NCBI RefSeq assembly: GCF_002261335.1
Contig: NZ_NEVL01000006.1
Span: 186,001-250,000 of the forward strand
From: Bordetella genomosp. 1
GTDB lineage: Bacteria; Pseudomonadota; Gammaproteobacteria; Burkholderiales; Burkholderiaceae_B
Direction of reading: 5' to 3'
Length of the DNA stretch: 64,000 bases
Shown piece by piece: positions 21,144 through 35,468 of this stretch. A program made the position numbers and the translations under genes. The notes beneath the pieces are model-generated. The model was given only the letters and a program-made list of their open reading frames with translations. It made no database searches and was not told the origin of the DNA. Position 1 is the stretch's first letter; each line of letters starts with the position of its first letter.

Positions 21144-22079
21144 TCAGCTGTTGGGCGGGCGCCGGATCAGGGTGGACTTGCCGAACAGGCTCTCGACCAG
21201 GTCGACCGCGATCGTGGCGGTCTTGTTGCGCACGTCGAGGGCGGGATTGAGCTCGACGATGTCGAGCGAAGCCATCAGCCCGGTATCCGCGATCATCTCC
21301 ATGCAGAGCTGCGCCTCGCGGTAGGTGGGGCCGCCGGGCACCGTCGTGCCCACGCCCGGAGCAACGTCGGGGTCGAGGAAGTCGACGTCGAAGCTGACGT
21401 GCAGGTGCGTGTCCGGATCCAGGCCGTAGAGCGCCTGTTCCATGGTGACGCGCATGCCGGCCTCGTCGATGTAGCGCATGTCGAACACCTCCAGCCCCGC
21501 TTCGTGGATCAGGTGGCGCTCGCCCTCGTCGACGCTGCGGATGCCGATCTGCCGCACCCAGGAGGGATCGAGCGTCGGCACGTGGCCGCTCATCTCGACC
21601 AGCGGCGCCGGCCCGCGGCCGCACAGGCAGGCCACCGGCATGCCGTGCACGTTGCCCGAGGGCGTGAGCTGGTTGGTATTGAAATCGGCGTGCGCGTCGA
21701 GCCACAGCACGCGCAGCGGCCGGCCGCGTTCGCGGCAGTGGCGCGCCACCGCGCTGATCGAGCCCACGCCGAGCGAATGATCGCCACCGAGCATGATGGG
21801 CAGCCGGCCCGCGCGCAGCTGCGCGTAGACGGCGTCGTGCACGAGCTGGTTCCAGGCCGTGACCTCGTCGAGGTGGCGATAGCCGTCGGCGGGCTTCTGC
21901 CAGGGATTCGCCGGACCGGAGAGATTGCCGCAGTCGTGCACGCGCAGACCACGGCCGGCCAGCAGCTCGGCCAAGCCGGCGACGCGCAGCGCCTCCGGGC
22001 CCATGGACGCGCCGCGCGCGCCCGCGCCGATGTCGGTGGGCGCGCCGATCAGGCTGACGTCGGTGACGGGAATATTCAT
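21144..22079 (-). CDS. rocF: Arginase
   Basis: A 311-residue ureohydrolase that splits arginine to ornithine and urea with a binuclear Mn centre in the cytosol. Metal-binding motifs are GGDHSLGVGSISA, DAHADFN and SFDVDFLDPDVAPGVG; all His/Asp ligands are present. The start at 22079 has GGAGG 11 nt upstream. It is the second gene of an operon with ornithine aminotransferase (28-bp gap), giving arginine, then ornithine, then glutamate semialdehyde. Expression is probably governed by the divergent Lrp-type regulator, an inference from position. Confidence 0.95.
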   Translation of the reverse strand: MNIPVTDVSLIGAPTDIGAGARGASMGPEALRVAGLAELLAGRGLRVHDCGNLSGPANPWQKPADGYRHLDEVTAWNQLVHDAVYAQLRAGRLPIMLGGDHSLGVGSISAVARHCRERGRPLRVLWLDAHADFNTNQLTPSGNVHGMPVACLCGRGPAPLVEMSGHVPTLDPSWVRQIGIRSVDEGERHLIHEAGLEVFDMRYIDEAGMRVTMEQALYGLDPDTHLHVSFDVDFLDPDVAPGVGTTVPGGPTYREAQLCMEMIADTGLMASLDIVELNPALDVRNKTATIAVDLVESLFGKSTLIRRPPNS

Positions 22080-22107
22080 GGCGGGGCGGTCCTCCGGAAA
22101 CAGGCCA

Positions 22108-23382
22108 TCAGTGTGCATCGAGCACGGCCTGCAGTTGATCGCAGGCCCAGTCTATCTGCTCGCGCGTGACAATCAAGGGCGGCGACAGGCGCAACGTCTG
22201 GCCGTGCGTGTCCTTGACCAGCATGCCGCGTGCCGCCAGCCGCTCGCACATCAGCCGCGCCGGCCCGGCATCCGCCTCCAGCTCCAGCGCGAGCATCAGC
22301 CCCCTGCCCCGGGCCTCGCGCACGGGGCCGCGCAACGCGGCCAGGCGCTCGAGGAAATAGGCGCCCTGGACCCGCGCGTTGTCGATCATGCCCTCGTCGT
22401 GCAGCACCGCCAGCGCGGCGCGCGCGACGGCGCACGCCAGCGGATTGCCGCCGAAGGTGCTGCCGTGCTGCCCGGGCTGGAACACGCCCAGCACGCTTTC
22501 GTTCGACAGCACGGCCGACACGGGATAGAAGCCGCCCGAGAGCGCCTTGCCGATCAACGTGACGTCGGCCTCGATGCCCTCGTGTTCCTCGGCCAGCATG
22601 GCGCCGGTGCGGCCCAGGCCGGTCTGGATCTCGTCGAGGATCAGCACCACGTTGCGCGCGCTGCACAGCTCGCGCACCCGCTTGAAGTAGCCCGGCTGGG
22701 CCATGATGACGCCGGCCTCGCCCTGGATCGGCTCGACCAGGAACGCCACGGTGTTGGGCGTGATGGCCTGGGCCAGCGCGTCGGCGTCGCCGAACGGAAC
22801 GACGCGGAAGCCGGGCGCGAACGGCGCGTAGCCGCCGCGCGCGTCGGGGTCGGTGGAAAAACCGACGATGCCGAGGGTGCGGCCATGAAAGTTGTTCGCG
22901 CAGACAATGATTTCGGCCTGCCCTTCGGGCACGCCCTTGACCTCATACCCCCATTTGCGCACGGCCTTGAGCGCGGTCTCGACCGCCTCCGCGCCGCTGT
23001 TCATGGGCAGGACCTTGTGGGCGCCAGTCAGGCGGGCGAGGTCTTCGTAGAGCGGCGCGAGCTGGTCGTGGCGGAACGCACGCGAGGTAAGCGTGAGGCG
23101 CTCGGCCTGCGCGGTGAGCGCGGCCAGGATGCGCGGATGGCAATGGCCCTGGTTGACGGCCGAATAGGCCGACAGGCAATCGAGGTAGCGGCGGCCCGCG
23201 GTGTCGTACAGCCACACGCCACTGCCGCGCGTGAGCACGACGTCGAGCGGATGGTAGTTGTGGGCGCCCAGCGTGCGCTCGACACGGTCGCGGTGCGGCG
23301 CGGCGGGATCCGGGTGGCCCTGCCACTTGGTTTCCCCTGCCTGGTCCTGGCCCGCATGCGCTCGGGTTTGCGTGTCCATCAT
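22108..23382 (-). CDS. rocD: Ornithine--oxo-acid aminotransferase
   Basis: A 424-residue class III PLP aminotransferase that converts ornithine and 2-oxoglutarate to glutamate 5-semialdehyde and glutamate. The PLP lysine lies in [13 protein letters not shown], and the preceding [12 protein letters not shown] is the cofactor-binding Asp motif. [20 protein letters not shown] is typical of ornithine rather than acetylornithine enzymes. Two adjacent ATG codons (23382, 23379) follow GGAG; the second has the better spacing. It is first in the operon with rocF, and divergent from an Lrp-family gene with about 130 bp between starts. Confidence 0.93.
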
Positions 23383-23503
23383 TCTCTCCGGAAGTTGGCC
23401 GGCCCTCGGGACCGGCATGGCTCCATGGTAGGCAAAGCCCGCGCTAGCGGATAGACAGGAATCTGGCAATAATGCTCAGGCCGCAAGGCACTTTGCCAGG
23501 TAC

Positions 23504-23967: not shown

Positions 23968-24987
23968 ATGGCCTGGAACCCACTGTCCGGCGGCCTGCCC
24001 GCGGCCGCCGCCCGCTCGATGGCAGATCCTGCCCCCTCCTCCCGTCCCGCCGCGCAGGCAGGCAGCCCGCGCGAACAGGCTGCGCGCTGGCTCGTCATGG
24101 TCCAGAACGGGCCGCTCACGGACACCGAACGCGCCGCCTTCCGCGCCTGGTACCGCGCCGATCGCACGCACCGCAGCGCTTGGCAACAGGCCGAGCGGCT
24201 GGGCCTCACGCTGAACCTCATCGACCCGAGCGCCACGCGCTACCTGACGCATGCATGGCGGGCGCCCTCGCGCCGCCAGGTCTTGCAGGGCATGGGCGCG
24301 CTGCTGGTCGGCACGCCGCTGCTGGCCGCGACGCTGCACGCCGAACCCTGGGAAGAATGGACCGCCGACGTCGCGACCGACGTCGGCGAACAGCGCCGCA
24401 TCACGCTGCCCGACGGCGGCAGGCTCCTGCTGAACACCGATACCGCGATCGACGTGGAATACGGCTCGCGCTGGCGCGCGATCCGCCTGCTCGAAGGCGA
24501 GCTGCGCGTGCGCGCCGCCGTCACGCGCGATGCGCGGCCCTTCATCCTGAGCACCGACCACGGCGTGCTGATGGGCACCGACTACGTGGTGCGCCAGCAC
24601 GACGACGCGACGCAGGTCACCGCGCTGGGCGCCGGCCTGCGCGTATCGCCGCAGCGCAACGACACCGCGACCCAGGATCTGGCGCCGGGCATGTCGGTGC
24701 GATTCGGGCCGACCGTGGTGGACGCGCCGATGGCGGCCGATGCGGGCGCAACCGCCTGGGTCGACGGCCGGCTGCTGGCGCGCGACACGCGCCTGGATGT
24801 CTTCCTGGCCGAACTGGCGCGCTATCGCAGCGGCGTGGTGCGCTGCGCGCGCGAGGCGGCGGGGCTGCGCCTGACGGGGGATTTCGCGCTGGCCGACACG
24901 GACGCGGTGCTGCGTGCGCTGCCGCAGCTCCTGCCGGTACGGGTGAACGCCAACAGCGCCTTCTGGGTCAGCGTGCGACTGGCCTGA
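23968..24987 (+). CDS. FecR-domain protein without partner genes (orphan)
   Basis: A 339-residue anti-sigma regulator-like protein. The N-terminal cytosolic DUF4880 domain (REQAARWLVMVQNGPLTDTE...FRAWYRADRTHRSAWQQ) is followed by one hydrophobic segment (about 110-125) and a periplasmic FecR domain (VGEQRRITLPDGGRLLLNTDTAIDVEY). In classical systems FecR passes the signal from a TonB receptor STN domain to sigma factor FecI. Here neither is adjacent: an Lrp-type gene lies 21 bp upstream and a convergent ggt downstream. The start may instead be the ATG at 24019, because TACAAT, resembling a -10 box, overlaps the first ATG. It is a homologue of the complete-set FecR at 53202. Confidence 0.85.
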   Translation: MAWNPLSGGLPAAAARSMADPAPSSRPAAQAGSPREQAARWLVMVQNGPLTDTERAAFRAWYRADRTHRSAWQQAERLGLTLNLIDPSATRYLTHAWRAPSRRQVLQGMGALLVGTPLLAATLHAEPWEEWTADVATDVGEQRRITLPDGGRLLLNTDTAIDVEYGSRWRAIRLLEGELRVRAAVTRDARPFILSTDHGVLMGTDYVVRQHDDATQVTALGAGLRVSPQRNDTATQDLAPGMSVRFGPTVVDAPMAADAGATAWVDGRLLARDTRLDVFLAELARYRSGVVRCAREAAGLRLTGDFALADTDAVLRALPQLLPVRVNANSAFWVSVRLA

Positions 24988-25084: not shown

Positions 25085-26680
25085 TCAGAACGCCGCCACC
25101 GCGCCGTCGGAGCGCGGATCGAAGCCCCCTTCCATGGCGCCCCCCGCGGCGCGGAACAGACATCCCGCGTGGCCGAAGGTCTCGTCGAAGTCGCCATAGA
25201 CCTCGACGTCGTGGCCGCGTGCGCGCAGGGCCTGCACGGTGGCCTCGGGAAACCGCCCTTCGAGCTTGAGCGTGTCGGAGGTCTGGCCCCAGGTGCGGCC
25301 GAGCAGCCAGCGCGGCGCCTCCACCGCGGCCTGCGGATCCATGCCGAACACCACGCTGCGCGTGAACACCGCCGACTGGCTCTGCGGCTGGCCATCGCCG
25401 CCCATGTTGCCGTAGACCATGGTGCGGCCGTCGTGCAGCAGCGCGAGGCCCGGATTGAGCGTGTGGAACGGCTTCTTGCCGGGCACGAGCGCATTGATGT
25501 GGCTCGGATCGAGCGAGAACGACGCGCCACGGTTCTGCCAGGCGATGCCGCTCGAGGGCAGCACCACGCCGGAGCCGAACTCGTGATAGATGCTCTGGAT
25601 CAGCGACACCGCGCGGCCCGACGCATCGATCACGCCCAGCCAGACCGTGTCGGCCGGGCCCAGGCCCTTGCCCCAGGGCGCGGCCTGCGACATGGAGATG
25701 CGCGCGGCCATCGCATCGAGCGCGGCCGGCTCCAGGAACGACTCGGCCAGCACGCGCATGTGGGCGGGGTCGGTGATGTGCAGGTCGCGCACCGCGAAGG
25801 CCTGCTTCACCGCCTCGGCGGCGGCGTGCACGTAATCGGCCGACAGCGGATCGAAGCCATCGATGTCGAGCCGGTCGAGCAGGCCCAGGATGATGAGCGA
25901 CACCAGGCCCTGCGTGGGCGGCGGCATGTTGTAGACCCGGCCATAGCGGTGCTGCAGCATCAGCGGCGTGCGGCGCTGCGCGCGATGCGCCTGCAGGTCG
26001 GCGCGGCGCAGCGGCGAACCGCTGGCGGCGAGTTCCTCGGCCATGCGCTGGCCCAGGTCGCCGCGATAGAAGTCGTCGAGGCCCGCGCGCGCCAGCTGCT
26101 CGAGCGTGGCGGCCATGCGCGGCTGGAAAAACAGGCTGCCGGGCTCGGGCGCGCCGCCGCGCGGCAGGAACACCTGCGCGAAACCGGGCAGGTGTTCGAG
26201 CTCGGCGCGCTTGTTGGCGGTGTTGCGCGCCTGGCTGCGCGTCACGGGCACGCCGTTGCGGGCGTAGTCGATGGCGTCGGCCAGCAGGCGCGACACGGGC
26301 AGCCTGCCGCCGAAGCGCTCGCGGCTCACGGCCAGCGCCTCGTCCCAGCCGGAAACGGCGCCGGCCACGGTGAGCGCGGCGCTGCCGCCGCGAAACGGGA
26401 TGGGCGCGCCGCCATAGTGTTCGGCGCGCACGCCGGCCGCGGCCGCGCCACAGGCGTCGATGCCGATCACCTCGGGTTCGCCGCCGGGCTCGTGGATCAG
26501 CCAGAAGTTGTCGCCGCCCAGCCCGTTCATGTGCGGGTACACGACCGCGATGGTGGCCGCGGCGGCGACCATCGCTTCGACGGCGTTGCCGCCTTCGCGC
26601 AGCACGGCAAGGGCGGATTGGGAAGCGAGAGCATGGGGCGCGACGGCGATGCCGCGGCGGCCGCGTACGGGTTGGGTCAT
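25085..26680 (-). CDS. Gamma-glutamyltransferase-family protein (YwrD-like)
   Basis: A 531-residue Ntn hydrolase that would autocleave into two subunits and act on gamma-glutamyl compounds such as glutathione. The large-subunit part has GNAVEAMVAAAATIAVVYPHMNGLGGDNFW. The small subunit would begin at the Thr in GPADTVWLGVID, followed by VSLIQSIYHEFGSGVVLPSSG and GNMGGDGQPQSQ. Classical enzymes read TTH at the cleavage site; here it is TVW, as in YwrD-type paralogues, so activity on ordinary donors is uncertain. No signal peptide is seen from the ATG at 26680, suggesting a cytosolic enzyme. It is a stand-alone gene. Confidence 0.88.
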   Translation of the reverse strand: MTQPVRGRRGIAVAPHALASQSALAVLREGGNAVEAMVAAAATIAVVYPHMNGLGGDNFWLIHEPGGEPEVIGIDACGAAAAGVRAEHYGGAPIPFRGGSAALTVAGAVSGWDEALAVSRERFGGRLPVSRLLADAIDYARNGVPVTRSQARNTANKRAELEHLPGFAQVFLPRGGAPEPGSLFFQPRMAATLEQLARAGLDDFYRGDLGQRMAEELAASGSPLRRADLQAHRAQRRTPLMLQHRYGRVYNMPPPTQGLVSLIILGLLDRLDIDGFDPLSADYVHAAAEAVKQAFAVRDLHITDPAHMRVLAESFLEPAALDAMAARISMSQAAPWGKGLGPADTVWLGVIDASGRAVSLIQSIYHEFGSGVVLPSSGIAWQNRGASFSLDPSHINALVPGKKPFHTLNPGLALLHDGRTMVYGNMGGDGQPQSQSAVFTRSVVFGMDPQAAVEAPRWLLGRTWGQTSDTLKLEGRFPEATVQALRARGHDVEVYGDFDETFGHAGCLFRAAGGAMEGGFDPRSDGAVAAF

Positions 26681-26899: not shown

Positions 26900-29230
26900 T
26901 CAGAGCTCCAGCACCAGCCGGCCGCCCTTGGCGCGCGAACAGCAGCTCATCATCTTGCCGCCCGCAGCGCGCTCGGCCGGGGTCAGCACCACGTCGCGAT
27001 GATCGATCTCGCCGTCGAGCACCCGCACCTCGCAGGAGCCGCACAGGCCCTCCTCGCAATCGCTCTGCACGTCGATGTTGGCGCGGCGCAGCGCGGCCAG
27101 CAGCGTCTGGTCGGCGGGCACGGACAGCGTCATGCCGGAGTCCTTGAGCTCGACCTCGAAGGCGTGTTCCCGGGACGGGTCCAGCGCCCCGAGCGTGGAC
27201 TGGAAGTGCTCGACCGTGAGCGCGCCTTCCGGCCAGTGCGCCGTGGCGGCGGCCAGGCCGTCGAGCATGCGCTGCGGCCCGCAGGCATAGATGCGCGTGC
27301 CCGGCGCCGGCTGCGCGAAGCGCGCGGCGAAGTCCTGCCGCCGTCCTTCGTCGCGGGCATAGACGTGCAGGCGCTCGCCGTGCAGCGCCTGCATGCCATC
27401 GAGCAGCGCCATGCGTGCGCGCGCCGAGCCGCTGTAGTGCACCTCGTACGACATGCCGAGCTCGCGGGCGCGGCGCGCCATGGCCGCGATCGGCGTGATG
27501 CCGATGCCGCCGGCCACCAGCACCACGTGGGCGGCGCTCTCGTCGAAACGGAAATGGTTGCGCGGGCCGCGCACCCGCACCCGGTCGCCGGCCGCGAGGC
27601 GCTCGTGCACCCAGGCGGAGCCGCCGCGGCTGTCGGGGTCGCGCAGCACCGCGATCTCGTAGGTGTCGCGCTCGGCCGGATCGCCGCACAGCGAGTATTG
27701 GCGCGACAGGCCGGTGTCGCCGCATTCCACGTCGAGGTGCGCCCCCGGGGTCCAGCGCGGCAGCGCCGCGCCGTCGGGGCTGGCCAGGCGCAGATGCAGG
27801 ATGTCGGGGCCCACGCGCGTGGCCTCGCGCACCACCAGCGTGCGGCTGATGTGGCGGGTGGACGGCTCACCGATGCGCACCGGCACGACGCGCGCGAGCA
27901 GCTCGGGCCGCGTGCGCTCCGGGTTCTGCGCGGGATCCCATTCGACCCACAGATGCTCGGGGCCGCGGAACGAGGTATTGGGCACGTAGCTGAAGGTCTG
28001 CTCGGCCAGCTTCAGGTGCGGCAGGCGGCGCGTGATCTCCTCGAGGAAGATCTGCATTTCCATGCGCGCGAGGTTCTTGCCCATGCACTGATGCGAGCCG
28101 TAGCCGAAGGTGAGCTGGTCGCTGGCGTTCTCGCGCCGGATATCGAACAGGTCGGCGTCGGCGAAATGGCGCTCGTCGTGGTTGGCCGACGAGGTGACGA
28201 TCAGCAGCTTGGCGCCGGCCTCGATCGGCACGCCGCCCACCACCGTGTCGCAGGTGGCCTGGCGGCGCCAGGCCGCCACCGAGCCGTTGTGGCGCAGGCA
28301 CTCTTCCACCGCGTTGGGGATCAGGCTGGGATCCTCGCAGATCTCGCGCCAGGCGTCGGGATGCTGCAGCAGCAGCTTGAAGGCGTTGGCGCTCGCGTTG
28401 GCCGTGGTCTCGTGGGCCGCCACGATGCCCGCCATCATCATCGAATGCAGGTAGGAGTCGGTCACGACGTCGGGCTGCTCGCGCTGCTTGCGGATGCCGT
28501 ATTGCATCCAGCCCGGCTGATCGGGATCGGCGCGCATCTTGTCGAGGATGCGGCCGGCCAGCTGCCAGAAGTTGCCGACCGCGTGCGCCACCTCGACCTG
28601 CTGCTCGGGCCGCGGACGCCCCCAGGTGTTGACCGTGTGCGCGATCGAGTACTGGCGCAGCAGGTCCATGTCTTCTTCGGGCACGCCGAGAAAGTGCAGC
28701 GCCACGGTGAGCGGCACTTCCCACAGCATCTGATCGACCAGGTCGGCGCGGCCGTCGTCGATGAAACGGTCGACGTATTCCCGCGTGAGCCGCCGCACCA
28801 TGGGCTCGTGATGCACCAGCTCCTCGGGCGTGAACGGCGCCATCAGCGCCCGCCGGCGCGGCATGTGGGCCGGCTCGTCTTCGTTGACCAGCGTGCGGTT
28901 CATCGCATAGCCGTACGAGGCCAGCACCGCGTTGGCCTCGGGCCCGGTCGGCGTGATCTTCTCAAGCGCGATGGCGGGGCTGAACGTGATGTTGTCGCGG
29001 AAGATCGCCTTGATGTCGTCGTAGCGCGTGACCACCCAGTAGCCCAGCTTGGGGCTGAAGAACACCGGCTCCTGCTCGCGCGACCAGCGTACGTATTCGG
29101 GCGGGTCTTGCTGGTAGCCGTCTTCGAACGGGTCGAATTCGGCCGCGCGCGCGCTCACCGGACAGCCGGCCGCGGCCAGCGCCCGGTGATCGACCGGACA
29201 CCCTGAGGCGATGGGGCGGGCTTGCGACAT
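26900..29230 (-). CDS. Self-sufficient cytochrome P450 (CYP116B type: P450-reductase-2Fe2S fusion)
   Basis: A 776-residue single-chain monooxygenase. The heme domain spans about 1-440, with I-helix AGIVAAHETT (267-276), ExxR at 310-313 and heme ligand Cys382 in FGYGSHQCMG. A phthalate-dioxygenase-reductase-like part follows: flavin motif RQYSL, NADPH-site AGGIGITPIAAMARRA, and YACGPQRML. The C-terminal plant-type 2Fe-2S ferredoxin has DCEEGLCGSC plus a distal Cys pair. As remembered, it strongly resembles Rhodococcus P450RhF (CYP116B2) throughout. The start at 29230 follows AGGAGATCGTC; the frame stays open upstream through the Bug gene, but that part is noise. It is co-directional with a Bug gene 59 bp upstream and probably under the divergent IclR regulator. 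Known relatives oxidise aromatic and aliphatic compounds; the native substrate is unknown. Confidence 0.95.
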   Translation of the reverse strand: MSQARPIASGCPVDHRALAAAGCPVSARAAEFDPFEDGYQQDPPEYVRWSREQEPVFFSPKLGYWVVTRYDDIKAIFRDNITFSPAIALEKITPTGPEANAVLASYGYAMNRTLVNEDEPAHMPRRRALMAPFTPEELVHHEPMVRRLTREYVDRFIDDGRADLVDQMLWEVPLTVALHFLGVPEEDMDLLRQYSIAHTVNTWGRPRPEQQVEVAHAVGNFWQLAGRILDKMRADPDQPGWMQYGIRKQREQPDVVTDSYLHSMMMAGIVAAHETTANASANAFKLLLQHPDAWREICEDPSLIPNAVEECLRHNGSVAAWRRQATCDTVVGGVPIEAGAKLLIVTSSANHDERHFADADLFDIRRENASDQLTFGYGSHQCMGKNLARMEMQIFLEEITRRLPHLKLAEQTFSYVPNTSFRGPEHLWVEWDPAQNPERTRPELLARVVPVRIGEPSTRHISRTLVVREATRVGPDILHLRLASPDGAALPRWTPGAHLDVECGDTGLSRQYSLCGDPAERDTYEIAVLRDPDSRGGSAWVHERLAAGDRVRVRGPRNHFRFDESAAHVVLVAGGIGITPIAAMARRARELGMSYEVHYSGSARARMALLDGMQALHGERLHVYARDEGRRQDFAARFAQPAPGTRIYACGPQRMLDGLAAATAHWPEGALTVEHFQSTLGALDPSREHAFEVELKDSGMTLSVPADQTLLAALRRANIDVQSDCEEGLCGSCEVRVLDGEIDHRDVVLTPAERAAGGKMMSCCSRAKGGRLVLEL

Positions 29231-29289
29231 GACGATCTCCTTTGCTGCGGCGGACGGCCGCGGGCGCGGCGCGTCCGCTTGATACGGGT

Positions 29290-30297
29290 TCAATCCAGCT
29301 TGATGCCCAGGTCGGCGATCAGCTTGTTCCAGCGGGTGCGTTCGGTGGTGAGCAGCGCCGCGTATTCCTTCGGCGTGTTGGCCACCGGCTCGATGCCGAA
29401 ATCGACCAGCTTGCCGCGGATGGCCGGGTCGTTGAGCGTGGCGACCAGCTGCTTGTTGAGCTTGTCGATCACCGCGGGCGGCGTGGCCGCCGGCACCGAG
29501 ACGCCGACCAGCGCCGCGGCCTGCACGTTGGGCAGGCCGGCCTCGGCGAAGGTGGGCACGTCGGGCAGCTGCGGCAGGCGCTGCGAATGCGCCACGGCCA
29601 GCGCGCGCACCTTGCCGCCCTTGATGAAGCCGGCGCCCGCGGCCAGGTCGACCATCATGGCGGGGATCTGGCCGCCGGCCACGTCGGCCAGCGCCGGGGC
29701 GGCGCCGCGATACGGCACGTGCACCAGGTTGAGCTTGGTCTCGACCTTGAACAGCTCCATCGCCAGGTGATGCGGGCTGCCCGCGCCGGCCGAGCCGTAG
29801 TCCAGGCCGGTGGGGCGCGACTTCGCCAGCGCGATGAATTCCTCGACCGTCTTGGCCTGCACCGAGGGGCCCACCACCAGAATCATCGGGAAGCGGCCCA
29901 TCAGCGTGACGGGCGCCAGATCCTTGACCGGATCGTAGGACAGCGTTTTGTACAGCGCCGGGTTGAACACCAGCGTGCCGTTGTCGGCGGAGACCATGGT
30001 GTAGCCGTCGGGCGCCGAGCGCGCGGTTTCGGACGCGCCGATCGCCGTGTTGCCGCCGGGCTTGTTGTCGACCACGATGGTCTGGCCGACCCGGGCCGAC
30101 AGACCCTGGCCCACGGTGCGGGCGAGGAAGTCGGAGCCGCCGCCTGCGGCATAGGGCACGACCCAGCGGATGGGCTTGCTGGGATAGCCGTCGGCGGGAT
30201 CGGCGGCGTGGGCCGCGGGCGCGATGGCGAGGGCCGCCAGGGCCGTACAGGCCAGGGCGAGGACGGAACGATAGGACTGCGGGCGATAGGAACGCAC
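29290..30297 (-). CDS. Bug/TctC-family periplasmic solute-binding protein
   Basis: A 335-residue tripartite tricarboxylate transporter receptor. A Sec signal peptide (about 1-28, ending APAAHA) is followed by the Bug fold with YPSKPIRWVVPYAAGGGSDF, VVDNKPGGNTAIGA and APDGYTM. Such proteins bind carboxylates, amides or aromatics in the periplasm. No TctA/TctB membrane genes are in the window, which is usual for the large Bug families of Bordetella-type genomes. The start is a GTG with AGGAG 8 nt upstream. It precedes the CYP116B gene, suggesting that it captures the P450 substrate or a product. An IclR gene diverges from it. Confidence 0.93.
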   Translation of the reverse strand: MRSYRPQSYRSVLALACTALAALAIAPAAHAADPADGYPSKPIRWVVPYAAGGGSDFLARTVGQGLSARVGQTIVVDNKPGGNTAIGASETARSAPDGYTMVSADNGTLVFNPALYKTLSYDPVKDLAPVTLMGRFPMILVVGPSVQAKTVEEFIALAKSRPTGLDYGSAGAGSPHHLAMELFKVETKLNLVHVPYRGAAPALADVAGGQIPAMMVDLAAGAGFIKGGKVRALAVAHSQRLPQLPDVPTFAEAGLPNVQAAALVGVSVPAATPPAVIDKLNKQLVATLNDPAIRGKLVDFGIEPVANTPKEYAALLTTERTRWNKLIADLGIKLD

Positions 30298-30338
30298 GGG
30301 TTGTCTCCTGATGCGTGATGAGGAACACGACTTTTGTT

Positions 30339-30365
30339 TTGCGTAAAGTCTATACGCAATGCGTA
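30339..30365. promoter_or_regulatory. Probable IclR operator: three TGCGTA half-sites
   Basis: TTGCGTA, a 7-bp spacer, TACGCAA and then directly TGCGTA give two overlapping inverted repeats (TTGCGTA-N7-TACGCAA and TACGCA-A-TGCGTA). They lie between the divergent Bug-P450 and iclR genes, in an AT-richer patch. A site where the IclR protein represses or activates both units is inferred. Confidence 0.65.
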
Positions 30366-30414
30366 ATTCGTCAAGACCCGGCAAACCCGCCCCTGGCCGC
30401 CCGGCGCCAGCACG

Positions 30415-30420
30415 TAGAAT
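30415..30420 (+). promoter_or_regulatory. -10-like TAGAAT for a leaderless iclR transcript
   Basis: TAGAAT ends 7 bases before the iclR ATG, with no ribosome site between. This is the spacing expected if transcription starts at the start codon itself. No convincing -35 is visible. Confidence 0.35.
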
Positions 30421-30427
30421 CCCCGCC

Positions 30428-31246
30428 ATGACGACCACCACCCCCGCTTCCGCCGCCCGGCCGCGCGAACGCCGCCAGCGCGTGCAGGCCGCCGAGACCG
30501 GCATGGCCGTGCTCAAGGCGCTCGCCCGCCTGGGCGGCCGCGCCAGCCTGACCGCCCTGGCCGCCGAGGTCGACGAACAGCCGGCCAAGGTGCACCGCTA
30601 CCTGGCCAGCATGATCGAGGCCGGCATCGTGGCGCAGGACAGCGGCTCCTCGCACTACCGCCTCGGCCCCGAAGCGCTCTACATCGGCCTGGCCGCCATG
30701 CGGCAGGCCGACCCGATCCGCGTGGCCGAGCCCGCGCTGATCCGGTTGCGCGAGCAACTGGGTGTGACCTGCTTCATCGCGGTGATGGGCAACAAGGGCC
30801 CCACCATCGTGCGCTTCGAGGAGCCCGGGCTGCCCGTGACGGTGAACGTGCGCGTCGGGTCGGTCATGTCGCTGCTGTGGTCGGCCACCGGCCGGGTGTT
30901 CCTGGGCCTGCACGACGACGCCCAGGTGCGCCGGCTGGCGCTCGAAGAGCTGGACGGCGCCGACGCCGCCTCGCGCGGCGCGCTCGATCCGGCCGATCCG
31001 CTCGGCCCCCTGCAGCGCGAGGTGCGCGCGGCGGGCTGCTCGATCGTGATCGACACCAACCTCAAGGGCATCAGCGCCGTCAGCGCGCCGATCTACAACC
31101 ATGCCGGCCAGGTCTGCGGTGCCCTCACCGCGCTGGGCACCACCGGCGGCTTCGACGCGCGGCCCGACGGCCCGATCGCGGCGGCGGTGCTGGCCGAGGC
31201 CCGCGCGGCCAGCCACGAGCTCGGTTACGCCAGCGCGACGCCGTGA
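30428..31246 (+). CDS. IclR-family transcriptional regulator (P450/Bug locus)
   Basis: A 272-residue protein: an N-terminal winged HTH (ETGMAVLKALARLGGRASLTALAAEVDEQPAKVHRYLASMIEAG) and a C-terminal effector-binding domain (ALIRLREQLGVTCFIAVMGNKGPTIVRF, GCSIVIDTNLKGISAVSAPIYN). These usually sense aromatic or short carboxylic acids. Divergent from the Bug-CYP116B unit, with symmetrical TGCGTA sites between, it is the obvious local regulator. The ATG at 30428 has no Shine-Dalgarno but a TAGAAT box 7 nt upstream. Its 3' end lies 40 bp before the DUF2946 gene on the same strand. Confidence 0.93.
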   Translation: MTTTTPASAARPRERRQRVQAAETGMAVLKALARLGGRASLTALAAEVDEQPAKVHRYLASMIEAGIVAQDSGSSHYRLGPEALYIGLAAMRQADPIRVAEPALIRLREQLGVTCFIAVMGNKGPTIVRFEEPGLPVTVNVRVGSVMSLLWSATGRVFLGLHDDAQVRRLALEELDGADAASRGALDPADPLGPLQREVRAAGCSIVIDTNLKGISAVSAPIYNHAGQVCGALTALGTTGGFDARPDGPIAAAVLAEARAASHELGYASATP

Positions 31247-31286: not shown

Positions 31287-31688
31287 ATGAGACCCGTGCG
31301 CGCGCAACGATCGCTACGCCACGCCGCCACCCTGTGGCTGGCGCTGGTGCTGTTCGCGCTCAAGGCCCTGGTGCCGCCGGGATACATGCCAGGCACGCAT
31401 GCCGACGCCAACCTGATCGAGCTGTGCTCGGCCGCCGGCCGCATCTTCGTGCAGGGCCCGGCGCCGGCCCACGACCAGGCCGACGAGCGCCATGCCGCCC
31501 AGGCCGCGGCCTGCCCGGTGGGCGCGGCGGTGGCCGCGGTGCCGCTGCCGCCTTCGCTGCCCGTCCTGGTGCCGGTCGGCACGGCCTACAGCTTCCCGTT
31601 CCGTGCCCGCGCGCCGCCCGTCGTCGCGCTCACCGCCTTCGCCGGCGCCCCGCTCGGGGCCCGCGCCCCGCCCGTCCCGCTCGTCTAG
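31287..31688 (+). CDS. DUF2946-like small envelope protein
   Basis: A 133-residue protein with an N-terminal signal/anchor (HAATLWLALVLFALKALVPPGYMPG), one Cys region (LIELCSAAGRIFV), a short His-containing stretch (PAHDQADERHAAQAAACPVG), and a hydrophobic Pro/Ala-rich second segment, ending in APPVPLV. This layout fits DUF2946, a family of unknown function often next to TonB receptors or metal genes. It is followed after 56 bp by a TonB receptor and then a PepSY membrane protein, so it is probably a periplasmic or membrane accessory of that uptake unit. Exact function is unknown. Confidence 0.7.
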   Translation: MRPVRAQRSLRHAATLWLALVLFALKALVPPGYMPGTHADANLIELCSAAGRIFVQGPAPAHDQADERHAAQAAACPVGAAVAAVPLPPSLPVLVPVGTAYSFPFRARAPPVVALTAFAGAPLGARAPPVPLV

Positions 31689-31744
31689 TTCGCCCCGGCC
31701 CGCCCGCTTGCGGCGGTATCGCCTCCCTAGACCGAGACTTCTCC

Positions 31745-33910
31745 ATGAATCCCCCCTCCGCCAGGACCGCCGTCCTGCCGCGGCGCATGCGCGCATGGCG
31801 CGTGCGCCTGCCGCACACCCTCGCCTCGCTCGCGCTCGCGCCCGCCGCCAGCCTTGCCCAATCCTCGCCCCCGGTCGCCACGCTGCCCGGCGTCACGGTG
31901 GCCGCCGACGCGCCCGCCCCCGCCCTGCTCGAAACCACCGCCACCGGCTCCCTGCTCGGCCTCACGCCATTCGAGACGCCCGCCAGCATCGACGTCATCA
32001 CCGAAACGCAGCTGCGCGAACGCGCGCCGCGCAGCATCGGCGAGGCCATCAGCCAGGCCCCCGGCATCAGCACGATGCGCCATCCCGGCAACGGCGGCGC
32101 GGCGCTGTCCTCGCGCGGCTTCACCGACACCAACTCGGTGGCGCAGCTCTACGACGGCCTGCGCCAGTACGGCGGCCTGGGCCAGACCCTGGTCGCCTCG
32201 CCCTGGGCCGTCGAGCGCATCGAGGTGCTGCGCGGCCCGGCCTCCGTCATCTACGGCGAGGGCGCGATCGGTGGCGTGGTCAACGTGGTGCCGAAGAAGC
32301 CGACGCGCGGCCCGATCGAGAACGAGATCGAGACCACGGTCGGCACGCATGACACGCAGCGGCTGGGCTTCGGCTCGGGCGGTGCGCTGGACGAGCGCTG
32401 GTCGTATCGCATCGACGCCAGCGCCGAGCACACTCATGCCGACATGAGCCTGGGCGGCGCCCGCAATGCCTCGCTGTCGGCCGCGCTGCGCTTCGACCTG
32501 AACCCCGAGCTCAACGTCACCTTCACGCAGGTGCTGGGCTGGCAGGAGCCGACGCGCTACTTCGGCACGCCGCTCATCGACGGCACGATGGACTACGGCC
32601 TGCGCCACCAGAACTACAACGTGTCGGATGCGCGCATCATCTATCGCGACAACCGCAGCGAGCTGCGCACCGAATGGCAGCCGAGCGACGCGGTGCTGGT
32701 ACGCAACCGGACCTACTACATGGGCAGCCGGCGCGACTGGCGCAACGCCGAGGAGTACGCCTGGCAGCCCGCCACCGGCCTGATCGAACGCAGTTCGTAC
32801 ACCAACATCCTGCACGATCAGGAACAGGTGGGCAGCGTGACCGACGCCGTGTTCAAGGGCACGCTCGCGGGCCTGCGCAACCAGTTCGCCGTCGGGCTGG
32901 AACTCAATCGCGCGAGCTTGAAGCACACCAACAACTCGCCCTACGGCGGCACCTCGGTGGTGGATCCGTATGACGTGGACCACGGCGAATTCGTCAACCT
33001 GGCCGGCACCACGCCGCGCTACCGCAACACGGCGCACCAGTTTGCGCTCTACGCGGAAGACCGCCTGTCGCTGACCGAGCGCTGGACGGTGCTGGGCGGA
33101 CTGCGCTACGACCGCATCGCGCTCGACCAGCGCAACCTCGTGGCCGACGAGACCGCCTATCGCCGCACCTTCAACAACATCGGCTGGCGCGTGGGCACGG
33201 TGTTCGACCTGACGCCGCAGACCGCGCTCTACGCGCAGTACGCCGAGGCGGCCGACCCGGTGGGCAGCCTGCTGATGCTGTCGCCGGCCAACCAAGGCTT
33301 CGACCTCGCCACGGGCCGGCAGGTCGAGGTGGGCGTGAAGCAGACCTTCTGGGACAACCGCGGCGAATGGACGCTGGCCGCGTATCACATCCGCAAGAAC
33401 AACCTGCTCGCGCGCGACCCCGCCGATCCGTCGCTGCGCATCCAGGTCGGCGAACAATCGAGCCGCGGCATCGAGGCCAGCGTCGGCGTGGCCCTCACCC
33501 CCACGCTGCGCGTGGACGCCAACGCGACGCTGCTGCAGGCGCGCTACGACGACTACACGGAAGCCTCGGGCGGACGCACGGTCTCGCGCAACGGCAACGT
33601 GCCCACCGACGTGCCGGAGCGGCTGGCCAATCTGTGGGTGAGCTGGAAGTTCCTGCCGCAATGGACCGCCAGCGCGGGCGTGCGCTACGTGGGCCGCCGC
33701 TATGCCGATGCGGCCAACGAGATCGAGATGGCCGGCTACACCACCACCAACCTCGCCCTGCAATGGGACGCGCGGCGCGACCTCACGCTGGCGCTGCGGG
33801 CATACAACGTGCTCGATCGCCAATATGCCGAGACGGCGTACTACAACCAGACGCAGTGGTTGCTGGGCACCGGCAGGCGCGTGGAACTGAGCGCCAACTA
33901 CCGATTCTGA
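31745..33910 (+). CDS. TonB-dependent outer-membrane receptor
   Basis: A 721-residue receptor: a signal peptide (to about residue 38), a TonB-box region, a plug domain (FETPASIDVITETQLRERAP, SSRGFTDTNSVAQLYDGLRQ, VEVLRGPASVIYGEGAIGGV-type segment), and a 22-strand barrel ending VELSANYRF with terminal Phe. It lacks the N-terminal STN signalling domain, so it does not belong to a FecIR-type circuit. It sits between a DUF2946 gene and a PepSY membrane protein with His repeats. A siderophore- or metal-complex substrate is the natural guess; no Fur-like box was seen upstream. Confidence 0.93.
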   Translation: MNPPSARTAVLPRRMRAWRVRLPHTLASLALAPAASLAQSSPPVATLPGVTVAADAPAPALLETTATGSLLGLTPFETPASIDVITETQLRERAPRSIGEAISQAPGISTMRHPGNGGAALSSRGFTDTNSVAQLYDGLRQYGGLGQTLVASPWAVERIEVLRGPASVIYGEGAIGGVVNVVPKKPTRGPIENEIETTVGTHDTQRLGFGSGGALDERWSYRIDASAEHTHADMSLGGARNASLSAALRFDLNPELNVTFTQVLGWQEPTRYFGTPLIDGTMDYGLRHQNYNVSDARIIYRDNRSELRTEWQPSDAVLVRNRTYYMGSRRDWRNAEEYAWQPATGLIERSSYTNILHDQEQVGSVTDAVFKGTLAGLRNQFAVGLELNRASLKHTNNSPYGGTSVVDPYDVDHGEFVNLAGTTPRYRNTAHQFALYAEDRLSLTERWTVLGGLRYDRIALDQRNLVADETAYRRTFNNIGWRVGTVFDLTPQTALYAQYAEAADPVGSLLMLSPANQGFDLATGRQVEVGVKQTFWDNRGEWTLAAYHIRKNNLLARDPADPSLRIQVGEQSSRGIEASVGVALTPTLRVDANATLLQARYDDYTEASGGRTVSRNGNVPTDVPERLANLWVSWKFLPQWTASAGVRYVGRRYADAANEIEMAGYTTTNLALQWDARRDLTLALRAYNVLDRQYAETAYYNQTQWLLGTGRRVELSANYRF

Positions 33911-33937
33911 ACGGGGCGCCGAGCCCGCAATCAACCG

Positions 33938-33957
33938 CCGCCGGCGCAGGCCGGCGG
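33938..33957 (+). other. Intercistronic hairpin
   Basis: CCGCCGGC, a GCAG loop and GCCGGCGG form a perfect 8-bp stem between the TonB receptor and PepSY genes. No T tract follows, so it more likely stabilises the upstream mRNA or lowers downstream expression than terminates. Confidence 0.4.
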
Positions 33958-33974
33958 CACGCAAAGGTGAATTC

Positions 33975-35468
33975 ATGACGACCGACACCGCCGGCACCCT
34001 GGAAAAAGAACCGGTACGCGCCTCGCAACTCTATCGCGCCGTGTGGCGCTGGCACTTCTACGCGGGCATGCTGGTCGTGCCCTTCCTGCTGATCCTCGCC
34101 GTGACCGGCGCGCTGTACCTGTTCCACAACGAGATCGAGGACGCCTGGTACCGCGACCTGCGCAGCGTGAGCGTGCAGCAGACGCCGGCACTCGCCCCCG
34201 AAGCGCTGGTGGCGCGGGCGCAGGCCGCGCATCCGGGCCGGGTGCTCAAGTATCTGCCGCCCGCCGCCCCCGACCGCAGCGCGGCCGTGGTGCTGCGCCC
34301 CGAGGGCGCGGCCAACCTGTCCGTCTATCTCGATCCCTACACGGGCGCGGTGCTGGGTGCGCTCGACGAACGCGGCACGCTGATGTGGACCATCCGCCAG
34401 CTGCACAGCCTCTCCTTCTTCGGCCCGATCGCCAATGGCGCGATCGAGATCGCCGCCGGCTGGACCATCCTGCTGGTGCTGACCGGCCTCTATCTCTGGT
34501 GGCCACGCGGCCGGCGCCAGGGCGTGGTGAGCGTGCGCGGCACGCCGCGCCAGCGCGTCTTCTGGCGTGACCTGCATGCGGTGGCCGGCGCCTTCGCCGC
34601 CGTGTTCATCCTGTTCCTCGCCATCACCGGCATGCCCTGGTCGATCGTGTGGGGCGCCAAGGTGAACCAGTGGGCCAATGGCAGCAACTTCGGCTATCCC
34701 GACGGCGTGCGCGTGAACGTGCCGATGTCGGCACTGCGGCTCGCCGACACGGGCAAGACCCCCTGGTCGCTCGAGCAGGCGCGCATGCCGATGTCGGCAC
34801 CCGCCGCCGCTGCCGCCGCCACGTCGGGCCACGATCACGGCCAGCACGAGGGCGCGCACGATCATGGCCAGAACGACGTGGCGCACGATCACGGCCAGGC
34901 GCCGCCGCCCGAGGTGGCCCGGCCCGACGGCGCCCCGCCGCCCGTCGGCCTGAACGCGGCCGTCGCCACCTTCGACCGCCTCGGCCTGGCGCCCGGCTAC
35001 GCCATCAACCTGCCGTCCGGCCCCACGGGCGTGTACACCGGCTCCGTCTATCCCGACGACCTGGCGCGCCAGCGCGTGGTGCACCTGGACCAGTACAGCG
35101 GCCGCCCGCTGCTCGACATGAGCTATGGCGATTACGGACCACTCGGCAAGGGTCTGGAATGGGGCGTGAACGTGCACATGGGGCAGGAATATGGCCGCAC
35201 CAACCAGATCGTGCTGGCGCTCGCCTGCCTCGCCATGGTGCTGATGTGCGTGGGCGGCGTGGCGATGTGGTGGAAGCGGCGGCCCGCGGGCGGACTGGGC
35301 ATTCCGCCGGCACCGACGCAGCGCGGCGCGTTGCGCGGCGTGCTGCTGCTGATGATCGTCGGCGGCTGTCTGTTTCCGCTGGTCGGCGCGTCGCTCATCG
35401 TGATGCTGCTGCTCGACGCGCTGGTGCAACGCGTGGGCCGCGGCAGCGCCCCGCCGCGCCACGCCTGA
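33975..35468 (+). CDS. PepSY-associated TM (PiuB-like) protein with His repeats
   Basis: A 497-residue inner-membrane protein with four to five membrane segments: about 30-50 (HFYAGMLVVPFLLILAVTGALYLF), 155-175, 205-222, 400-420 and 445-470. PepSY domains face the periplasm. Such proteins accompany TonB receptors and are thought to reduce or process imported metal complexes. Residues 286-308 contain three HDHGQ units, nine-residue spaced, giving a metal-binding loop between the second PepSY region and an Ala-rich linker. The ribosome site AAAGGTG lies just before the ATG. It is the last gene of the DUF2946-TonB-PepSY unit. Confidence 0.9.
   Translation: MTTDTAGTLEKEPVRASQLYRAVWRWHFYAGMLVVPFLLILAVTGALYLFHNEIEDAWYRDLRSVSVQQTPALAPEALVARAQAAHPGRVLKYLPPAAPDRSAAVVLRPEGAANLSVYLDPYTGAVLGALDERGTLMWTIRQLHSLSFFGPIANGAIEIAAGWTILLVLTGLYLWWPRGRRQGVVSVRGTPRQRVFWRDLHAVAGAFAAVFILFLAITGMPWSIVWGAKVNQWANGSNFGYPDGVRVNVPMSALRLADTGKTPWSLEQARMPMSAPAAAAAATSGHDHGQHEGAHDHGQNDVAHDHGQAPPPEVARPDGAPPPVGLNAAVATFDRLGLAPGYAINLPSGPTGVYTGSVYPDDLARQRVVHLDQYSGRPLLDMSYGDYGPLGKGLEWGVNVHMGQEYGRTNQIVLALACLAMVLMCVGGVAMWWKRRPAGGLGIPPAPTQRGALRGVLLLMIVGGCLFPLVGASLIVMLLLDALVQRVGRGSAPPRHA

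Follow-up and report, generated by a model that had tools for sequence, protein, structure and literature searches.

The stretch analysed here, 64,000 nucleotides of Bordetella genomosp. 1 (contig NZ_NEVL01000006.1, positions 186,001 to 250,000; hereafter the window), carries the gene of a self-sufficient cytochrome P450 (P450) of the CYP116B type, preceded by the gene of a Bug/TctC periplasmic receptor, and facing away from both the gene of an IclR-family regulator. This locus is very probably an ohpR-ohpT-ohpA catabolic module for 2-hydroxyphenylacetate (2-HPA), with the regulator OhpR acting via a predicted three-box operator in the divergent gap. Gene order, strands and gaps, protein identities of 68–77%, the pocket residues of the P450, the presence of hmgA in the genome and the joint occurrence of operator and OhpR in relatives all argue for this assignment. 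The natural substrates of CYP116B enzymes had been called mostly unclear in the initial annotation, a statement that is outdated, and the question of the substrate is answered by the literature with 2-HPA. Donoso (2021; PMC8449657) described the IclR-Bug-CYP116B locus of Cupriavidus pinatubonensis JMP134 as ohpR-ohpT-ohpA; OhpA hydroxylates 2-HPA at position 5 to homogentisate, a JMP134 ohpA mutant was unable to grow on 2-HPA, and P. putida KT2440 gained this growth from ohpA alone. The ohpT-ohpA junction was co-transcribed, a PohpT-gfp fusion responded to 2-HPA and not to the related compounds tested, and growth on 2-HPA tracked the presence of ohpA across the strains tested. Formation of homogentisate from 2-HPA is likewise reported for CYP116B234 of Rhodococcus globerulus (PMC11889516) and for CYP116B305 (PMC12126322).

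OhpA, OhpT and OhpR of the window are 77%, 72% and 68% identical to their counterparts in C. pinatubonensis HN-2 (locus L068), the copy that served as stand-in for strain JMP134. The 776-residue P450 unites in a single chain a P450 domain with the heme ligand Cys382 (FGYGSHQCMG), a reductase part (FAD_binding_6, residues 466–561) and a C-terminal 2Fe-2S domain (Fer2, residues 694–768), the class VII organization of CYP116B; translation and domain matches thus bear out what had been read from the sequence. For comparison, 109 loci were compiled, 29 from a set of 150 genomes, the window genome included, and 80 from contigs of relatives (the best 80 of 457, so that the sample is weighted to close relatives), after exclusion from loci L001–L116 of seven partial matches in the window genome (L002–L008) which hold no full P450. 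Among the P450 sequences 102 of 109 are distinct, identical pairs being one locus seen in two collections, and the column of Cys382 is cysteine in all 109. The P450 of G011, assigned to the same genus as the window genome, is identical to that of Bordetella ansorpii (L051). The solved structures closest to the window protein are 6kbh (1247 bits) and 6laa (1056 bits), both over residues 9–776, and 6laa we take to be CYP116B46. The residue numbers in PMC11889516 fit the alignment to 6laa, and at the four of 18 pocket positions that were compared, those at which that paper has CYP116B234 differ from CYP116B46, window OhpA (A88, T202, W203, S317) is of the CYP116B234 type throughout.

The arrangement of the genes had also been described correctly: the P450 (ATG at 29230) lies 59 bp behind the Bug gene (GTG start at 30297, stop at 29290; TctC match 245 bits), and the IclR gene is divergent from this pair across a gap of 130 bp, counted from the starts at 30297 and 30428. 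A further in-frame ATG lies upstream, at 30359, of ohpR, whose product has HTH_IclR and IclR_C domains. The short ohpT-ohpA gap and the sole promoter-like site in 30200–30500 fit co-transcription of ohpT and ohpA.

Three boxes in alternating orientation lie at 30340–30366. The symmetrical TGCGTA sites noted initially are present as repeated boxes in the gap, but they are better described as three boxes of alternating direction. TGCGTA as such is rarer in the window than expected (7 occurrences on both strands versus 13.7), and three of the seven are packed into 26 bp inside the divergent gap. With up to three mismatches, TTGCGTA-n5-TATACGCAA matches a single place in the window, on both strands (0.05 expected), and with up to two a single place in the whole genome. 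That the site is not a chance occurrence follows from its conservation in relatives. Among the 100 loci with an IclR gene and a placeable region, the best match to TACGCA-n-TGCGTA-n7-TACGCA had no mismatch in 53, one in 29, two in 9, three in 3, four in 1 and seven or eight in 5; 91 regions thus stay within two mismatches of 18, and none of 2000 shuffled regions fell below four. For L017, L020 and L079 the region scanned was on the wrong side of ohpR, the operator there lying between ohpR and ohpA. The extended pattern, at up to two mismatches, occurs in 27 of the 150 genomes, of which 26 belong to the 29 that carry ohpA and one (G096) to the 121 that do not, as compared with two genomes for a reversed control pattern. 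None of the 30 sites in the 26 genomes lies farther than about 1.3 kb from the P450. In the three genomes with ohpA and no operator (G054, G067, G089), the 13–14 kb around the P450 contain no IclR match or one of only 40% identity. The operator-like site of G096 (two mismatches) was judged to be due to chance; it stands before a 118-residue open reading frame (ORF) to which no Pfam family matched, and the 12 kb searched there gave no P450, Bug or IclR match.

The occurrence of the operator (two mismatches or fewer) was then compared with that of OhpR (50% identity or more, within the locus) over 106 loci; L021, L067 and L105 were omitted, as their sequence stops short of the relevant position. 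Both are present in 97 and both absent in 7, with two discordant loci (104 of 106 agree). OhpR was scored as present in L028, where it lies downstream of the P450, and in L109, where a truncated match is found about 5.4–6 kb upstream; the operator is missing from seven of the eight loci in which OhpR is lost or diverged. Some points weigh against too strong a reading of these counts. The figure of 104 of 106 ignores kinship, and of six independent pairs on the tree five agree and none opposes (p = 0.0625); furthermore, L111 has an operator and no OhpR in the available DNA, and L108 has OhpR with an operator of three mismatches. Cupriavidus gilardii and a relative (L037, L040) retain ohpT-ohpA, yet their divergent IclR protein shows only 44% identity and their operator is missing or changed, probably as the result of a regulator swap. 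A published OhpR operator was not found in the literature searched, most subscription journals and all supplements being outside its reach. With the predicted operator, OhpR control can be tested for rapidly at the DNA level, and 2-HPA biosensors might be built more easily. A second conserved element, AGGTTAACCC, lies upstream of box 1, at about −22 to −12 from the operator (e.g., in L068), and occurs for example in Cupriavidus, Pandoraea, Achromobacter and Paraburkholderia; exact GGTTAACC is found within 40 bp upstream of the operator in 35 of 97 regions, and the window version of the AGGTTAACCC element, near 30376–30388, is degenerate.

Along the 109 loci, the Bug gene directly precedes the P450 gene in 59, stands apart as a unit of its own in 9 and is missing beside the P450 in 41; the exact arrangement of an IclR gene divergent from Bug-P450 is found in 53. 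L039, L043, L046 and L058 were scored as Bug-less, the Bug protein nearby being only 39–40% identical, and in L030 OhpT (62%) was found behind a second operator on a longer stretch. The Bug label switches several times along the P450 tree, a quick tree free of bootstrap values for which the earlier labels 59/8/42 were used (L030 then counted as Bug-less). With 41 of 109 loci lacking it, the Bug gene is optional: the synteny is conserved, and Bug is an accessory rather than a defining part. The proposal of a single small-molecule pathway shared by Bug, IclR and P450, with a synteny that would recur in relatives, finds good support in the conserved arrangement, the shared operator and the published induction by 2-HPA, but has to be relaxed with respect to Bug. 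No replacement transporter is common to the 10 ORFs neighbouring the P450 in seven Bug-less loci; they belong to mixed families, with MFS proteins in L061 and L047 only.

The placement of the operator follows that of ohpT. Where Bug heads the operon the operator precedes Bug, where Bug is absent it directly precedes the P450, and where Bug is a unit of its own, eight of nine loci (L030, L033, L034, L035, L036, L081, L101, L110) have another, Bug-facing operator (at most three mismatches); in the ninth (L029), ohpT lies downstream of ohpR in the same direction. It is thus hardly probable that the Bug gene stands there by chance and plays no part in 2-HPA use, even if its absence from 41 loci, the several independent changes on the tree and the 112 Bug-like places in the window genome (G000, 5.6 Mb) would suit such a reading, against which the co-transcription of ohpT-ohpA and its induction in JMP134 (PMC8449657) speak as well. 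In the same direction as chance points the finding that no second operator exists elsewhere in the 37 genomes with Bug-less loci, 36 of which have exactly one site and that of L078 none; the genomes of the other four Bug-less loci (G056, G085, G054, G067) have one, one, zero and zero sites. As all 30 sites in the 26 genomes with ohpA and operator lie near the P450, and 36 of the 37 genomes with Bug-less loci have one site each, control by OhpR seems, on this sequence evidence, to be limited to the ohp locus.

The position of the operator relative to the promoter bears on how OhpR may work. Between boxes 2 and 3 there is a −10-like hexamer; when each of the 97 distinct operator regions is scored at whichever of two registers fits better, 77 agree with TATAAT at five of six positions (mean 4.76 versus 3.52 in shuffled DNA). 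Taken singly, the register two bases further upstream, still within the operator, scores best (mean 4.08). Matches to TTGACA form a −35-like peak directly upstream of box 1 (mean 2.60), and a second peak (2.58), ten bases further up, stems from the conserved AGGTTAACCC element. In the window, the promoter pair TTGACG/TAGACT is found once in 30200–30500, versus a mean of 0.0 in shuffles. At 23 of the 40 P450-facing sites, only 26–46 bp separate the operator from the P450 start, as estimated from the alignment. The −10-like element inside the operator and the little room for a downstream promoter in these 23 sites favour repression, and the operator would likely cover the core promoter, with 2-HPA relieving repression. 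An activator of the PcaU/PobR kind, whose third box recruits RNA polymerase, is the less probable possibility, to be held tentatively. PMC8222616 reports three-box sites for PcaU, PobR and HmgR and cites a reference naming PcaU an activator in its title, and the strong induction of ohpT by 2-HPA (PMC8449657) would agree; the scant promoter space and the −10-like hexamer within the operator, on the other hand, speak against it. Two observations qualify the case for repression: leaders of 55–375 bp in the other 17 P450-facing sites, mostly of Pandoraea, would accommodate a downstream promoter, so that close spacing around the promoter holds for only some members of the family, and the induction of ohpR itself by 2-HPA in JMP134 (PMC8449657) fits repression and activation alike.

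In the proposed route, OhpA would use NAD(P)H and O2 to hydroxylate 2-HPA at C5, as demonstrated in C. pinatubonensis and expected here by orthology, and the homogentisate formed would be processed by HmgA and fumarylacetoacetase. The genes of both enzymes are present in the window genome; HmgA (HgmA_N, 408 bits) adjoins fumarylacetoacetase on the same contig, about 83 kb from the ohp locus. OhpT, a Bug receptor with no membrane partners at the locus, presumably aids uptake of 2-HPA together with a TctAB pair encoded elsewhere; the genome has seven TctA matches, one of them weak, and the nearest OhpT paralogue is 51% identical. OhpR would sit on the three-box operator over the ohpT promoter, and 2-HPA would bring about its release or a switch to activation. 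The hmgA gene is present in 26 of the 29 genomes with ohpA and in 47 of the 121 without it. A strict coupling of ohpA to HmgA is weakened by the remaining three (G039, G051, G053), at least there, as they carry OhpR, operator and fumarylacetoacetase, yet no HmgA-family match. That the C-terminal model had merely missed HmgA in these genomes (L161, L162, L163) was considered and discarded, a repeat search with the whole HmgA of the window genome being equally matchless. A gentisate-dioxygenase-like gene is present in G053, below the family cut-off, and absent from G039 and G051. G053 also encodes a stand-alone P450 of 406 residues directly downstream of ohpA (L163:6797–8017, minus strand). These genomes raise a small question about homogentisate cleavage. 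The combined proposal that OhpR is a dedicated regulator with about one target locus per genome and an operator lying over the core promoter and relocating together with ohpT, and that G039, G051 and G053 employ an undescribed, non-HmgA homogentisate-opening enzyme, appears doubtful.

In a rival reading, for which the three genomes lacking HmgA could be cited, the P450 in this Bordetella is related to OhpA but has taken on a different substrate, either a xenobiotic or a longer ortho-hydroxyphenyl acid, for example 3-(2-hydroxyphenyl)propionate, to which Bug and IclR would be adapted as well. CYP116B305 bound 3-(2-hydroxyphenyl)propionate as tightly as 2-HPA according to PMC12126322, and CYP116B1 hydroxylated thiocarbamates, as cited in PMC8449657. 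Against this stand the shared operon and operator, the four pocket residues, which are of the 2-HPA type, hmgA in the window genome and in most genomes with ohpA, and the occurrence of a single P450 of the OhpA kind (E ≤ 1e-100) in each of these 29 genomes, in the window genome as a single full copy; such a recruitment is very improbable, and 2-HPA is retained as the probable substrate.

Features of the ohp locus in the window (identities are to the proteins of C. pinatubonensis HN-2, L068)
Feature	Coordinates	Strand	Basis
ohpA orthologue, CYP116B self-sufficient P450, 776 residues	26900..29230	-	77.2% (599/776) identity to the 783-residue protein
ohpT orthologue, Bug/TctC periplasmic receptor, 335 residues	29290..30297	-	72% identity to Bug, residues 9-335
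ohpR orthologue, IclR-family regulator, 272 residues	30428..31246	+	68% identity to IclR, residues 14-267
Predicted OhpR operator, TTACGCA-n-TGCGTA-n6-TTACGCA, reading towards ohpT-ohpA	30340..30366	-	sequence conservation
Sigma-70-like promoter for ohpT-ohpA, TTGACG, 16 bp, TAGACT; overlaps operator	30347..30374	-	promoter scan and relatives

A gamma-glutamyltranspeptidase gene (25085–26680) was considered as an operon member and rejected, as it is about 220 bp off and present at two of 109 loci, the window and the close relative G009. The two flanks of the locus (23968–24987 and 31287–35468) hold a FecR gene on one side and, on the other, genes for a DUF2946 protein, a TonB-dependent-receptor-like ORF and a membrane protein, the latter two assigned by eye; they look like metal uptake genes unrelated to ohp. 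Farther away (21144–23469, minus strand), an arginase-like ORF adjoins an ornithine aminotransferase-like ORF, both assigned by eye from the translations.

Compared with known systems, the locus is closest to ohpR-ohpT-ohpA of JMP134 (PMC8449657), with the same three families, gene order and strands, gaps of 46 bp (ohpT-ohpA) and 130 bp (ohpR-ohpT) there versus 59 and 130 bp here, and the homogentisate pathway genes elsewhere in the genome. It differs in the genus, Bordetella, in the 68–77% identity, measured against strain HN-2, and in the predicted operator, the main text of PMC8449657 mentioning none. CYP116B234 shares the enzyme class and the four named pocket residues with the window protein; it is actinobacterial, and the main text of PMC11889516 mentions no IclR protein, tripartite system, transporter or gene cluster. 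The operators of PcaU, PobR and HmgR, from a study with 32 three-box groups (PMC8222616), likewise have three half-sites of alternating direction, whereas the OhpR boxes read TTACGCA/TGCGTA, belong to one locus per genome and overlap the core promoter. The finding is real, although the catabolic locus itself was already published; the copy described here extends the module to a Bordetella, and the predicted operator is a small, useful addition to it.

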